DNA of 51,126 bases from Candidatus Parcubacteria bacterium (GTDB lineage Bacteria > Patescibacteriota > Patescibacteriia > UBA1558 > GWA2-36-10), in assembly GCA_018669975.1 (NCBI GenBank), contig JABHSK010000009.1, forward strand, positions 1-51,126, in the 5' to 3' direction. The notes under the pieces are model-generated. The model did no database searches, was not told the DNA's origin, and saw only the letters and a list, made by a program, of their open reading frames with translations. Positions 29,892 to 33,648 of this stretch are shown in pieces; the stretch's first letter is position 1; each line of letters opens with the position of its first letter. The position numbers and the translations under genes are program-made.

Positions 29892-29924
29892 AAAAATTCC
29901 CCGATAATCGGGGAATTTTTTTTA
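29891..29924. terminator. Bidirectional terminator between pilB and valS
   Basis: Perfect 10-bp stem AATTCCCCGA / TCGGGGAATT with loop TAA, flanked by an A run and a T run. Confidence 0.92.
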
Positions 29925-32900
29925 TTTTAACTTATTTCTGGCTTGTTCTAATCTACGCTTAGTCTCAGCTACCACTTCTGGCGGAGCACTACTAGTAAAT
30001 TTTTCATTAGCTAATTTAATTTCTAAAGATTTTATATATTTTTCTATATCATTTTTCTCTTTATCCGACATTTCTCTACTAAGATCTATTAAAACCTTAC
30101 TACTATTTACATAAATAGGCTCAACGTCTACCGCCTCATCTATTAGATTGACTCTGGCCATCTTAGCCGCTAATTGTAGATAATCATCACTTAATATTGC
30201 GCTAACTAAGTTACAGTCTGGGAAGTCTGTTGGTGGAATCTTATTGGCTGCTTTCAAATTCCTCAGATTAACTACCAACTCTTTTAATTCCGCAAAATTA
30301 ATAATAGTATCTTTATCTACCTTGCCAACCTTGGGCCAATCGGCAACCATCAATAAATTTTCCTTATCAAAGTATTTCCAAATGTTTTCTGTCACAAAAG
30401 GAGTGAAGGGGTGACAAATAATAAGTAACCTCTCTAAAATATACAAAAGTATTTCGTCTTTATCTTTTTCTATTTTAGCAATCTCTAAATACCAATCAGC
30501 TAAATCATCCCAAGTAAAATGATAAAGTTTTTCGCCTGCTGAAGAAAACTTAAAATTATCTAAGTCCTTACTAACTTCATCAATCATCTCATTAAATTCT
30601 GATAAAATCCACTTGTCAGCTAATGTTTTAACCTTTGGTTGTTTTTTTATTGTTTTAACTTCAGACACAGACGTTAAAATAAAACGAGAAATATTCCAAA
30701 GCTTATTAACAAAGTTTCGATAGCCAGCAATCTTTTCCTCATAGACTCTAAGGTCTGCCCCTAGTGCTGAACCAATAATTAGAGAGAGCCTCAGAGCATC
30801 AGTACCAAATTTATCTATCATATCTATAGGATCAATGCCATTACCCAGAGATTTGGACATTTTACGGCCATCCTTATCACGAATCATCCCGTGCAAATAA
30901 ACAGTTTCAAATGGCTTATCTTCTAATAGGTACTCTGTCATTAATATCATCCTAGCCACCCAGAAAAATATAATATCATAGCCTGTTTCCATGACAGTGG
31001 TAGGATGAAACTTTTTAAAATCTTTAGTTTTTTCCGGCCAACCTAAAGTGGAAAATGTCCACAGAGATGAAGAAAACCAAGTATCTAAAGTATCTGGATC
31101 TTGAACCCAACCTGATCCTGTAGGCTTTTCTAAACCTACATGTATTTCGTTTTGTTTTTGATCTAAATTATATTGATGGGCTCCTAGTGGGGCATGTACA
31201 TTTAAAGAATCTTCACTAAAATCTCCCCCATTAAGAATAATTTCGAAAGTTTTCCAAGTACCGCTGTGTGCTACTATGGCAATCCTCTTATTCTTATACT
31301 TATTGGCGACTTCATCAAAAAAGAGTTGCACCCTATCTCTTACTTGTTGATAGGTCTCTCCATTAGGGAAGCCCTTTACTCTGTGCTTATCAATTAACGA
31401 GCCACTTTTATCCGTTAAATCACCAAAATCAACCTCCCTTAGTCTATTATCTTCTATAACTTTTTTACCTGGGAATAATATACTCGCCGTGTCTTTGGCT
31501 CTAGATAAATCAGAAGAAAATATAACATCGAAATCGTCAGGGTTTATTTCTTTGGCTATTTCCTGAGCTTGTACTACCCCTTTAGCGGTCAACTTATAAT
31601 CCTTATGTCCAGCACCAATTTTTAAAGCATTAGCCTCTGATTGCGTATGTCTAAAAAATGTAATTTTAATACCTGTTTTATTCTTTTTGTACCAAACCGG
31701 AATTCTGTGTCCCCACCATATTTGTCGAGAAATACACCAGTCATGTAAATTATCCATCCAGTTATGGTAAGTTTTAACAAAGCGTTCTGGCACTATCTCT
31801 ATCTCTTTATTTTTGACTGTCTCACTAGCCAACTGTTTAAGAGTCTTGCCGCGACCAGGAATTTCTTTATCAACAGCTACAAACCACTGTTCAGAGGTAA
31901 GTGGTTCAATGGCAGTTTCACAACGATAACAAATAGATAGGTTATTTTTTATTTCTTCTATTTTGTCTATTTGCCCAGCTTGCTCTAAATCCTTTACAAA
32001 TGCTTTACGAGCATCCAAAACTGCTATACCTTTATATTTTCCACCTGACTCCATTACCTGACCCTGCTCATCGATCAATTTAATTGTTTGCAAATTATGC
32101 CTTTGAGCAAAATTATAGTCAGCAGCACTATGTGCGGGTGTTACACCTACTACACCTGAACCAAAATCCTTATCTACCTCCTTGTCTGCAAAAACTTTAA
32201 CCTTAATTTTGTGTCCGGCCAAATCAATATCTAATTCTTGACCAACATACTTCTGATAACGCTCATCCTCTGGATGCACAGCTACACCAGTATCTGCCAA
32301 TTTCGTTTCTGGACGAGTCGTAGCCACTATAAATGGTCCATACTTAATATAGTATAGTTTTGCATCCTGCTCTTGATATTCAACCTCATCATCAGCCAGG
32401 GTTGAAGCGCAGCGTGTACACCAATTAACTATCCTATGACCTCTATATACTAATTCATCTTCATACATACGTACAAAGGCTTCATTGACCGCCTGAGACA
32501 AGCCTTCATCAAAAGTATACCTTTCTCTAGACCAATCACAACTTGAGCCCATACGACGAGTTTGATTCTTTATATTACCCTGTGATTGAGTCACATACTC
32601 CCTAACTCTTTGCAAAAACTTTTCTCTGCCTAATGTTTCCCGGTCTGTGCCCTCTTCAGCTAATATCTTCTCAACTTTTGTTTGAGTAGCAATAGCGGCA
32701 TGGTCTGTGCCTGGCAACCACAGTGTTTTGTATCCCTGTAAACGCTTATAACGAATCATTAAGTCCTCATAGGATAAGGCAGCTGCATGACCAAGATGAA
32801 GAATGCCAGTAGCATTTGGTGGTGGCATAGAAATGGTAAATGGCTTACCCTTACCTTTAAGATTGTCAGGATTAAATAAACCTGATTCTTCCCAAAGTCT

Positions 32901-32960
32901 ATAAATATCCTTTTCATGCTGCTTCGGCTCGTAGGCCTTGGCCATTTCTGTTATTGTCAT
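29922..32960 (-). CDS. valS: Valyl-tRNA synthetase with inserted histidine-phosphatase domain
   Basis: The 1012-aa protein starts at ATG 32960; the frame continues upstream into the T-box leader, so that part is excluded. HLGHA (residues 55-59) and KMSKS (near 700) are the class I signatures. The CP1 editing region (ATTRPETKLADTGVAVHP) and LDTWFSSSLWTFSTLGWP identify ValRS. Between GHRIPVWYKKNKTG and EIHVGLEKP, residues ~430-600 are a full histidine-phosphatase (phosphoglycerate-mutase-like) domain with R437-H438 (FFRHTQSEAN), R487 (SDLSRAKDTA), E509 (LREVDFGD) and H565 (VAHSGTWK), so all catalytic residues are present. The C-terminus is the usual short arm. Valylation is certain; what the phosphatase does is unknown. 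Confidence 0.95.
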   Translation of the reverse strand: MTITEMAKAYEPKQHEKDIYRLWEESGLFNPDNLKGKGKPFTISMPPPNATGILHLGHAAALSYEDLMIRYKRLQGYKTLWLPGTDHAAIATQTKVEKILAEEGTDRETLGREKFLQRVREYVTQSQGNIKNQTRRMGSSCDWSRERYTFDEGLSQAVNEAFVRMYEDELVYRGHRIVNWCTRCASTLADDEVEYQEQDAKLYYIKYGPFIVATTRPETKLADTGVAVHPEDERYQKYVGQELDIDLAGHKIKVKVFADKEVDKDFGSGVVGVTPAHSAADYNFAQRHNLQTIKLIDEQGQVMESGGKYKGIAVLDARKAFVKDLEQAGQIDKIEEIKNNLSICYRCETAIEPLTSEQWFVAVDKEIPGRGKTLKQLASETVKNKEIEIVPERFVKTYHNWMDNLHDWCISRQIWWGHRIPVWYKKNKTGIKITFFRHTQSEANALKIGAGHKDYKLTAKGVVQAQEIAKEINPDDFDVIFSSDLSRAKDTASILFPGKKVIEDNRLREVDFGDLTDKSGSLIDKHRVKGFPNGETYQQVRDRVQLFFDEVANKYKNKRIAIVAHSGTWKTFEIILNGGDFSEDSLNVHAPLGAHQYNLDQKQNEIHVGLEKPTGSGWVQDPDTLDTWFSSSLWTFSTLGWPEKTKDFKKFHPTTVMETGYDIIFFWVARMILMTEYLLEDKPFETVYLHGMIRDKDGRKMSKSLGNGIDPIDMIDKFGTDALRLSLIIGSALGADLRVYEEKIAGYRNFVNKLWNISRFILTSVSEVKTIKKQPKVKTLADKWILSEFNEMIDEVSKDLDNFKFSSAGEKLYHFTWDDLADWYLEIAKIEKDKDEILLYILERLLIICHPFTPFVTENIWKYFDKENLLMVADWPKVGKVDKDTIINFAELKELVVNLRNLKAANKIPPTDFPDCNLVSAILSDDYLQLAAKMARVNLIDEAVDVEPIYVNSSKVLIDLSREMSDKEKNDIEKYIKSLEIKLANEKFTSSAPPEVVAETKRRLEQARNKLK

Positions 32961-32971
32961 AAACTTTATAT

Positions 32972-33000
32972 AAAAAATAAAAACGCAAGTACTTGCGTTT
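32972..33000 (-). terminator. Terminator of the valS T-box leader
   Basis: Perfect palindrome AAACGCAAGT / ACTTGCGTTT (33000-32981) followed by TTATTTTTT on the - strand. It overlaps the 3' end of the antiterminator by about two bases. Confidence 0.85.
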
Positions 33001-33204
33001 AAGGGTCCCATAAACATGAGACGGTACCACCTTAATTCCTGCGAAACACCCCGAGCAATCGAAGGGTCCTACAGACACTTAATTCCTGCACAATAACGGG
33101 CGCACCCCGGTAGGTTCTAGTCTCTTAAAATAAGATTTCTTCCTACAACTACCCAGGCGACATTAATCCTGGATTAAAACGTTTTTTATTCAATTGATAA
33201 TATT
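32972..33204 (-). ncRNA. T-box riboswitch leader upstream of valS
   Basis: On the - strand, TTAAGG / CCTTAA pair around the 7-base bulge TGGTACC (33029-33023) and an inner GTCTCAT / ATGGGAC stem closed by GTTT. This is the T-box antiterminator. TGGT in the bulge matches the ACCA end expected for tRNA-Val. An intrinsic terminator follows (20-base palindrome 32981-33000, then a T run). Upstream is a stem III-like hairpin ACCC-TT-CGA / TCG-GGGT (33067-33048). I could not place the specifier codon with confidence in stem I. Uncharged tRNA-Val should favour readthrough into valS. Confidence 0.85.
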
Positions 33205-33233
33205 ACAATAATATAAATTACTATTTTAGTCAA
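33205..33233 (-). promoter_or_regulatory. Promoter of the valS leader
   Basis: TTGACT (33228-33233), 17-base spacer and TATTGT (33205-33210) on the - strand. The -35 overlaps the tsaE stop codon. Confidence 0.6.
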
Positions 33234-33648
33234 TGATAATTTTCCTTTTATCACCTTCTAAATTTTCTATTTTTATTTTAATAGTACTATCAGGTAAATT
33301 AATAATTTTATCAGCCCATTCAATTACTACCACGGAATTATCAAAAGCCAAATAATCACTTAGACCAATATCAGCTAAATCCTCCTGCCCTTCCAATCGA
33401 TAGCAGTCAACATGAACTATCCTTCTTATCTTACCAACTTCTACGTCATAAACTTTCATTAAAACAAAAGTCGGACTAGTAATATTTTCTTCTACCCCCA
33501 TAGCTTTAGCCAGCGCCTTAACAAACACTGTCTTGCCAGCGCCCAAATTACCAGATAGAGCCAAGACTTCGCCCCCCTGTAAACTTTTGGCTACCTCCTG
33601 GGCTATGCGACCTGTTTCTTCTACATTGTTACTTATATATTCTTTCAT
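33226..33648 (-). CDS. tsaE: tRNA t6A biosynthesis ATPase TsaE
   Basis: 140 aa, the usual TsaE length. Walker A is LSGNLGAGKTVFVKAL (residues ~34-49), with the TSPTFVL switch region, HVDCYRL and VVIEWADKI. TsaE drives the TsaB-TsaD-TsaE complex that puts threonylcarbamoyl on A37 of ANN-reading tRNAs. It lies 8 bases after tsaD, so the two are one operon; tsaB and tsaC are not in this window. The valS promoter begins inside its end. Confidence 0.94.
   Translation of the reverse strand: MKEYISNNVEETGRIAQEVAKSLQGGEVLALSGNLGAGKTVFVKALAKAMGVEENITSPTFVLMKVYDVEVGKIRRIVHVDCYRLEGQEDLADIGLSDYLAFDNSVVVIEWADKIINLPDSTIKIKIENLEGDKRKIIID

Follow-up and report, generated by a model that had tools for sequence, protein, structure and literature searches.

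How is transcription of valS, the gene for valyl-tRNA synthetase, controlled in an uncultured member of the Patescibacteria with a small genome, and is the RNA leader that precedes this gene a T-box? The question is raised by positions 1 to 51,126 of contig JABHSK010000009.1 from Candidatus Parcubacteria bacterium (assembly GCA_018669975.1); this whole stretch of 51,126 nucleotides is referred to as the window. Between tsaE and valS there is a leader on the minus strand (33203-32971), in which a preliminary description of the window had seen a T-box controlling valS. T-boxes have been associated chiefly with Firmicutes and Actinobacteria (PMC2494555), and the window comes from the candidate phyla radiation (CPR). 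The proposal is borne out by a match to the T-box model RF00230, by covariation and by agreement between codon and downstream gene. Judged from its sequence, the leader is very probably a T-box that reads the charging of tRNA-Val(GAC) and controls valS transcription by premature termination; the T-box assignment, the valS target, the specificity for tRNA-Val and the CPR host are supported.

Evidence from tRNA matching, covariation and relatives

RF00230, a model built without training on the window sequence and thus independent evidence, matched the leader with 37.8 bits (E 5e-7 in 401 nt; 3.2e-7 genome-wide). The same genome encodes tRNA-Val(GAC), with A73 and the 3′ end ACCA, which matches both the specifier GUC and the bulge UGGU of the leader; the pairing of TGGT with ACCA that had been expected for tRNA-Val is therefore available from the organism's own tRNA. 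The genome-wide search also found a second T-box, before thrS (L002 1657-1501, minus strand; G000:C1:28626-28470), with the bulge UGGAACC, the codon ACC in the loop of a short stem I (read by eye in thrS leaders) and a classical overlapping terminator, CCCGAGACU...AGUCUGGGG. ACC and UGGA are matched by the tRNA-Thr(GGU) of the genome, with U73 and the end UCCA. In both switches, UGGN can thus pair with the 3′ terminus of the cognate tRNA.

The same structure, with compensatory changes, stands before valS in related genomes. The closest ValS proteins among named relatives are those of Candidatus Parcubacteria BM519, of SURF_51 and of Candidatus Komeilibacteria bins, and a valS T-box is present in BM519 and SURF_51. 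When 36 leaders were aligned, 97% of the cells paired and two-sided changes were seen at 23 of the 27 pairs; there were 269 two-sided cells, as against 70 +/- 8 in shuffles. Because the alignment had been fitted to the structure, this count is biased in its favour, but slid controls collapsed. All 27 pairs of the model are retained in the window.

A set of 11 valS leaders, that of the window among them, served to build a covariance model, R1; the R1 score of the window itself is therefore not independent. R1 matched 11 of 36 genomes of the order, 81 of 381 genomes of the class (E<=1e-3) and 122 of 380 Patescibacteria genomes (E<=1e-4); RF00230 matched 126 of the 380 genomes of the phylum, 13 of them over its cut-off. 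Outside the phylum, 20 genomes yielded a single weak R1 match, in a spirochaete bin (L260), where a T-box-like leader and a terminator-like hairpin precede a gene with a helix-turn-helix-like start.

The genes downstream of the R1 matches were clustered, and the representatives were named by NCBIfam as valS, ileS, thrS, aspS and glyS. The codon in the loop of the first hairpin was GUC before valS (36/41), AUC before ileS (16/35) and GAC or AAC before aspS (16/16). Thus, the specifier codon tends to match the regulated gene: codon and gene agreed in 68 of 90 cases, the mean for permuted labels being 27 and never above 43 in 10,000 permutations. No leader of any gene other than valS had entered the training of R1, so a change of codon with gene was not built into it. 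The bulge base also differed by gene, being A before thrS (20/20), U before valS (41/45) and ileS (31/33) and C before aspS (12/17). All of 13 aligned valS leaders have UGUC, on a stem that varies. The conserved GUN specifier which the preliminary description had proposed to look for in homologous leaders, without placing it in the window, was thus found, and in the window it lies at 33161-33159.

Anatomy of the leader and comparison with known T-boxes

All of the parts named in the preliminary description, i.e., the antiterminator with its TGGTACC bulge and TTAAGG/CCTTAA arms, the stem III hairpin and the terminator, can be seen on the minus strand, between a promoter and valS. Stem I begins with a base helix, whose 5′ strand AAC (33182..33184) pairs with GUU at about 33149-33147; in relatives this helix is mostly AGC/GCU, with AAC/GUU, GAC/GUC, GCC/GGC and GGC/GCC in others. 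An asymmetric internal loop, often with GA/GA, lies above it in relatives and is indistinct in the window (K-turn check). The base helix is followed by an ultrashort hairpin of six pairs (33152..33173), UCCAGG-AUUAAUGUCG-CCUGGG, with two-sided changes at six of six pairs in the 36 leaders. The apical loop holds the specifier GUC for valine (33159..33161), followed by a purine, and there stem I ends, with no upper stem and no double T-loop. Rfam had placed stem I in the end of tsaE; this placement was rejected in favour of 33184-33147.

Stem II (33110..33146) has the S-turn signature AAGAAA / GACUAGA, a motif described in PMC7583486 and present in 89 of 97 relatives; in the window, C replaces the bulged G. 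Two-sided changes were found at all eight counted pairs of this stem. Next comes stem IIA/B (33094..33109) with the F-box CCGUUA, which was found in 84 of 97 relatives; the IIA hairpin is 95% paired. The sequence signatures and helices of stem II and IIA/B are thus present, the partner strand of the pseudoknot having been read by eye only. Then follow the purine string AAGUG, the stem III hairpin (about 33076-33038, -13.6 kcal/mol) and AA (together 33036..33080), as in the described motif RRRxG-stem III-AA (PMC7583486). Four family members (G014, G003, G006 and G018) lack stem III.

The antiterminator (32999..33035), read directly, consists of helix A1 (UUAAGG/CCUUAA), the seven-nucleotide bulge UGGUACC (33023..33029), in which UGGU can pair with the terminal ACCA of tRNA-Val, and helix A2 (GUCUCA/UGGGAC); A1 and A2 covary in relatives. 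The intrinsic terminator (32971..33000) comprises the hairpin AAACGCAA-GUAC-UUGCGUUU (33000-32981) and a U-tract; a terminator scan found one such element, versus 0.2 in shuffles.

The leader shares with class I transcriptional T-boxes (RF00230; Bacillus subtilis tyrS and glyQS) the UGGNACC-bulge antiterminator, stem III with its flanking purines, the F-box, the S-turn signature of stem II, the downstream intrinsic terminator and an aminoacyl-tRNA synthetase as target. Unlike these, it has no long stem I or upper stem, hence nowhere for the double T-loop that binds the elbow; its specifier is in an apical loop rather than a side bulge; its terminator abuts the antiterminator instead of sharing its 3′ arm; its helix A2 starts with G-C; and its score is below the Rfam cut-off. 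With those translational T-boxes of Actinobacteria (ileS) whose stem I is ultrashort it has in common the short stem I, the apical-loop specifier, the stem II S-turn and the predicted IIA/B pseudoknot; it differs from them in having a terminator rather than sequestration of a Shine-Dalgarno sequence, in its valS target, in its occurrence in Patescibacteria and in the loss of stem III from the four family members. As a rule, T-boxes that act on transcription need a long stem I, whereas in most of those that act on translation it is intermediate or ultrashort (PMC7583486).

The putative promoter, found by a consensus scan, is TTGACT - 17 nt - TATTGT (33205..33233, minus strand) and overlaps the stop codon of the upstream gene tsaE (33226..33648, minus strand; PF02367, E 2e-38); its spacing, read by eye, is similar in family leaders. 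The gene valS occupies 29922..32960 of the minus strand, with its ATG at 32960 (NF004349, 974 bits). Residues 433-572 of ValS are an inserted histidine-phosphatase domain (PF00300, E 5e-30), which lies inside the core of the synthetase.

Terminator layouts, switching and rival explanations

In a permissive scan, 97 of 106 relatives had a terminator-like hairpin nearby, and three layouts were seen. In the overlapping layout (most aspS and several valS leaders), the terminator shares 8-18 nt with the 3′ arm of the antiterminator. In the enclosing layout (many ileS leaders and valS leaders of other families), it surrounds the antiterminator, its upstream strand being in the stem III position. In the abutting layout (the family of the window and some ileS leaders), the overlap is 0-3 nt. 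In the window it is exactly 2 nt (33000-32999), so that the overlap which had been called unusual is real, and it is conserved in the family. Enclosure of the whole antiterminator by a terminator stem whose 5′ strand takes the place of stem III was seen in L129, L132, L145 and L230-L237; the enclosing strands vary by genome (CACCAA/UUGGUG in L129, AAGUGA/UCACUU in L161). When the antiterminator was forced, the terminator fell to 0 in the same-order relatives G024 and G022, where the two structures are mutually exclusive; in the enclosing layout the outer stem survived.

Several observations weigh against a T-box that acts by premature termination in the window. The score of 37.8 bits is below the RF00230 gathering score of 93, and no match is reported at that threshold; of the two grounds for abandoning the proposal that had been named beforehand, a low Infernal score and the lack of a conserved GUN specifier, the first thus came true and the second did not. 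The 93-bit cut-off serves the curation of the library and does not describe a biological feature, and the score lies under it because the upper stem I is missing. About half of the ileS leaders lack AUC in the hairpin chosen by the script; the leaders share ancestry, so that the permutation and shuffle counts overstate independence; and the base of helix A2 is G-C here, a G-U wobble being described as conserved there. The valS T-box is absent from several close relatives and is thus dispensable. Finally, partition functions with the antiterminator forced in the window left the terminator core with a pairing probability of 0.71-0.97 and six of the eight terminator pairs in place, in a fold model that ignores tRNA, tertiary contacts and co-transcriptional kinetics. 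Because the core persists, simple strand competition does not explain switching in the window, and exclusion of one strand by another is demonstrated only for the overlapping layout, since the terminator or its outer stem survives in the other two.

A terminating T-box in the window would therefore need another way to switch. The tRNA-antiterminator complex would let RNA polymerase read through into valS, and charged tRNA would leave the terminator active. The preferred idea is that the bulky complex could abut the terminator and remove its two basal A-U pairs, and that it could hinder the terminator hairpin at the polymerase exit. Pairing of a conserved 5′ GCGUUU with the terminator arm AAACGC, which would block the terminator, was predicted in several family members; this candidate was rejected, as leaders with a different terminator retain the 5′ strand, which covaries instead with GCU after the hairpin.

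The persistence of the terminator is what a degenerate T-box would also give, one that binds tRNA without switching, the terminator forming in either state and valS being constantly attenuated. The C in place of the bulged G of the S-turn, and the loss of the element in some relatives, are in keeping with such decay. It is nevertheless improbable, as the window keeps 27/27 model base pairs and the layout with 0-3 nt of overlap is found throughout the family and again ahead of ileS in other families, which suggests a working arrangement. Little weight, too, can be given to a translational T-box as in Actinobacteria, with a hairpin that is only incidentally a terminator. The ultrashort stem I is of a type known from translational T-boxes (PMC7583486), and before valS of the relative G151 (L195) no terminator was found and an AAGGA Shine-Dalgarno sequence is a possible pairing partner of the antiterminator arm UCCUUA; L195 is a possible translational version within the same phylum. 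In the window, however, no Shine-Dalgarno sequence was seen by eye near the valS ATG, nor a class II sequestrator of one, and the hairpin with its U-tract is conserved at the same place in the family. That the leader is a leader-peptide attenuator, or simply the terminator of tsaE, and looks like a T-box by chance is very improbable. An AUG does overlap the specifier, and AUGUCGCCUGGGUAG would be a four-codon frame, but there is no run of valine codons and the leader peptide was rejected on that ground. The fold energy of the whole leader is ordinary (z -0.82), as chance likeness would have it; it was dropped as uninformative, and the independent RF00230 match, the matching tRNAs, the covariation and the codon-gene agreement speak against chance.

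T-boxes across the phylum and their significance

The terminating T-box that we favour for the window is one of many in the phylum. The preliminary description understated the finding, which is a phylum-wide set rather than one isolated T-box, and one that combines an ultrashort stem I with a terminator. Before aspS, several T-boxes (L163, L165, L173, L182, L184, L188, L189 and others) have AAC (Asn) as the loop codon in place of GAC (Asp), and in most of them the bulge is UGGC; these sequences suggest sensing of tRNA-Asn by way of a non-discriminating aspartyl-tRNA synthetase. In the same class, T-boxes at L003-L007, L030 and L041 stand before argG, a trpD-like gene, a GCS2-like gene and others; several of them score higher on RF00230, and some of these leaders are longer. 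Two more (L179 and L187) precede genes for HD-domain proteins and have GUG/GUC-like loop codons.

Possibly, the Patescibacteria have a T-box class of their own, ultrashort, partly without stem III and transcription-terminating, with abutting or enclosing platforms in which the tRNA would dock beside the terminator, or sterically block it, with no swap of strands; we put this forward tentatively and regard it as doubtful. In the open-access PMC literature, a search that did not extend to the contents of Rfam and TBDB, no paper describing T-boxes in CPR/Patescibacteria was found; 13 genomes lie over the Rfam cut-off, so these T-boxes may already have been catalogued by automatic annotation.

The presence of T-boxes in roughly a third of the sampled Patescibacteria points to tRNA charging as a means of control in reduced, probably host-dependent cells. 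The design in the window departs from the rule that T-boxes controlling terminators generally need a long, elbow-binding stem I. A leader of about 130-230 nt allows a direct test of how a tRNA would be captured without such a stem, before the polymerase reaches the terminator.
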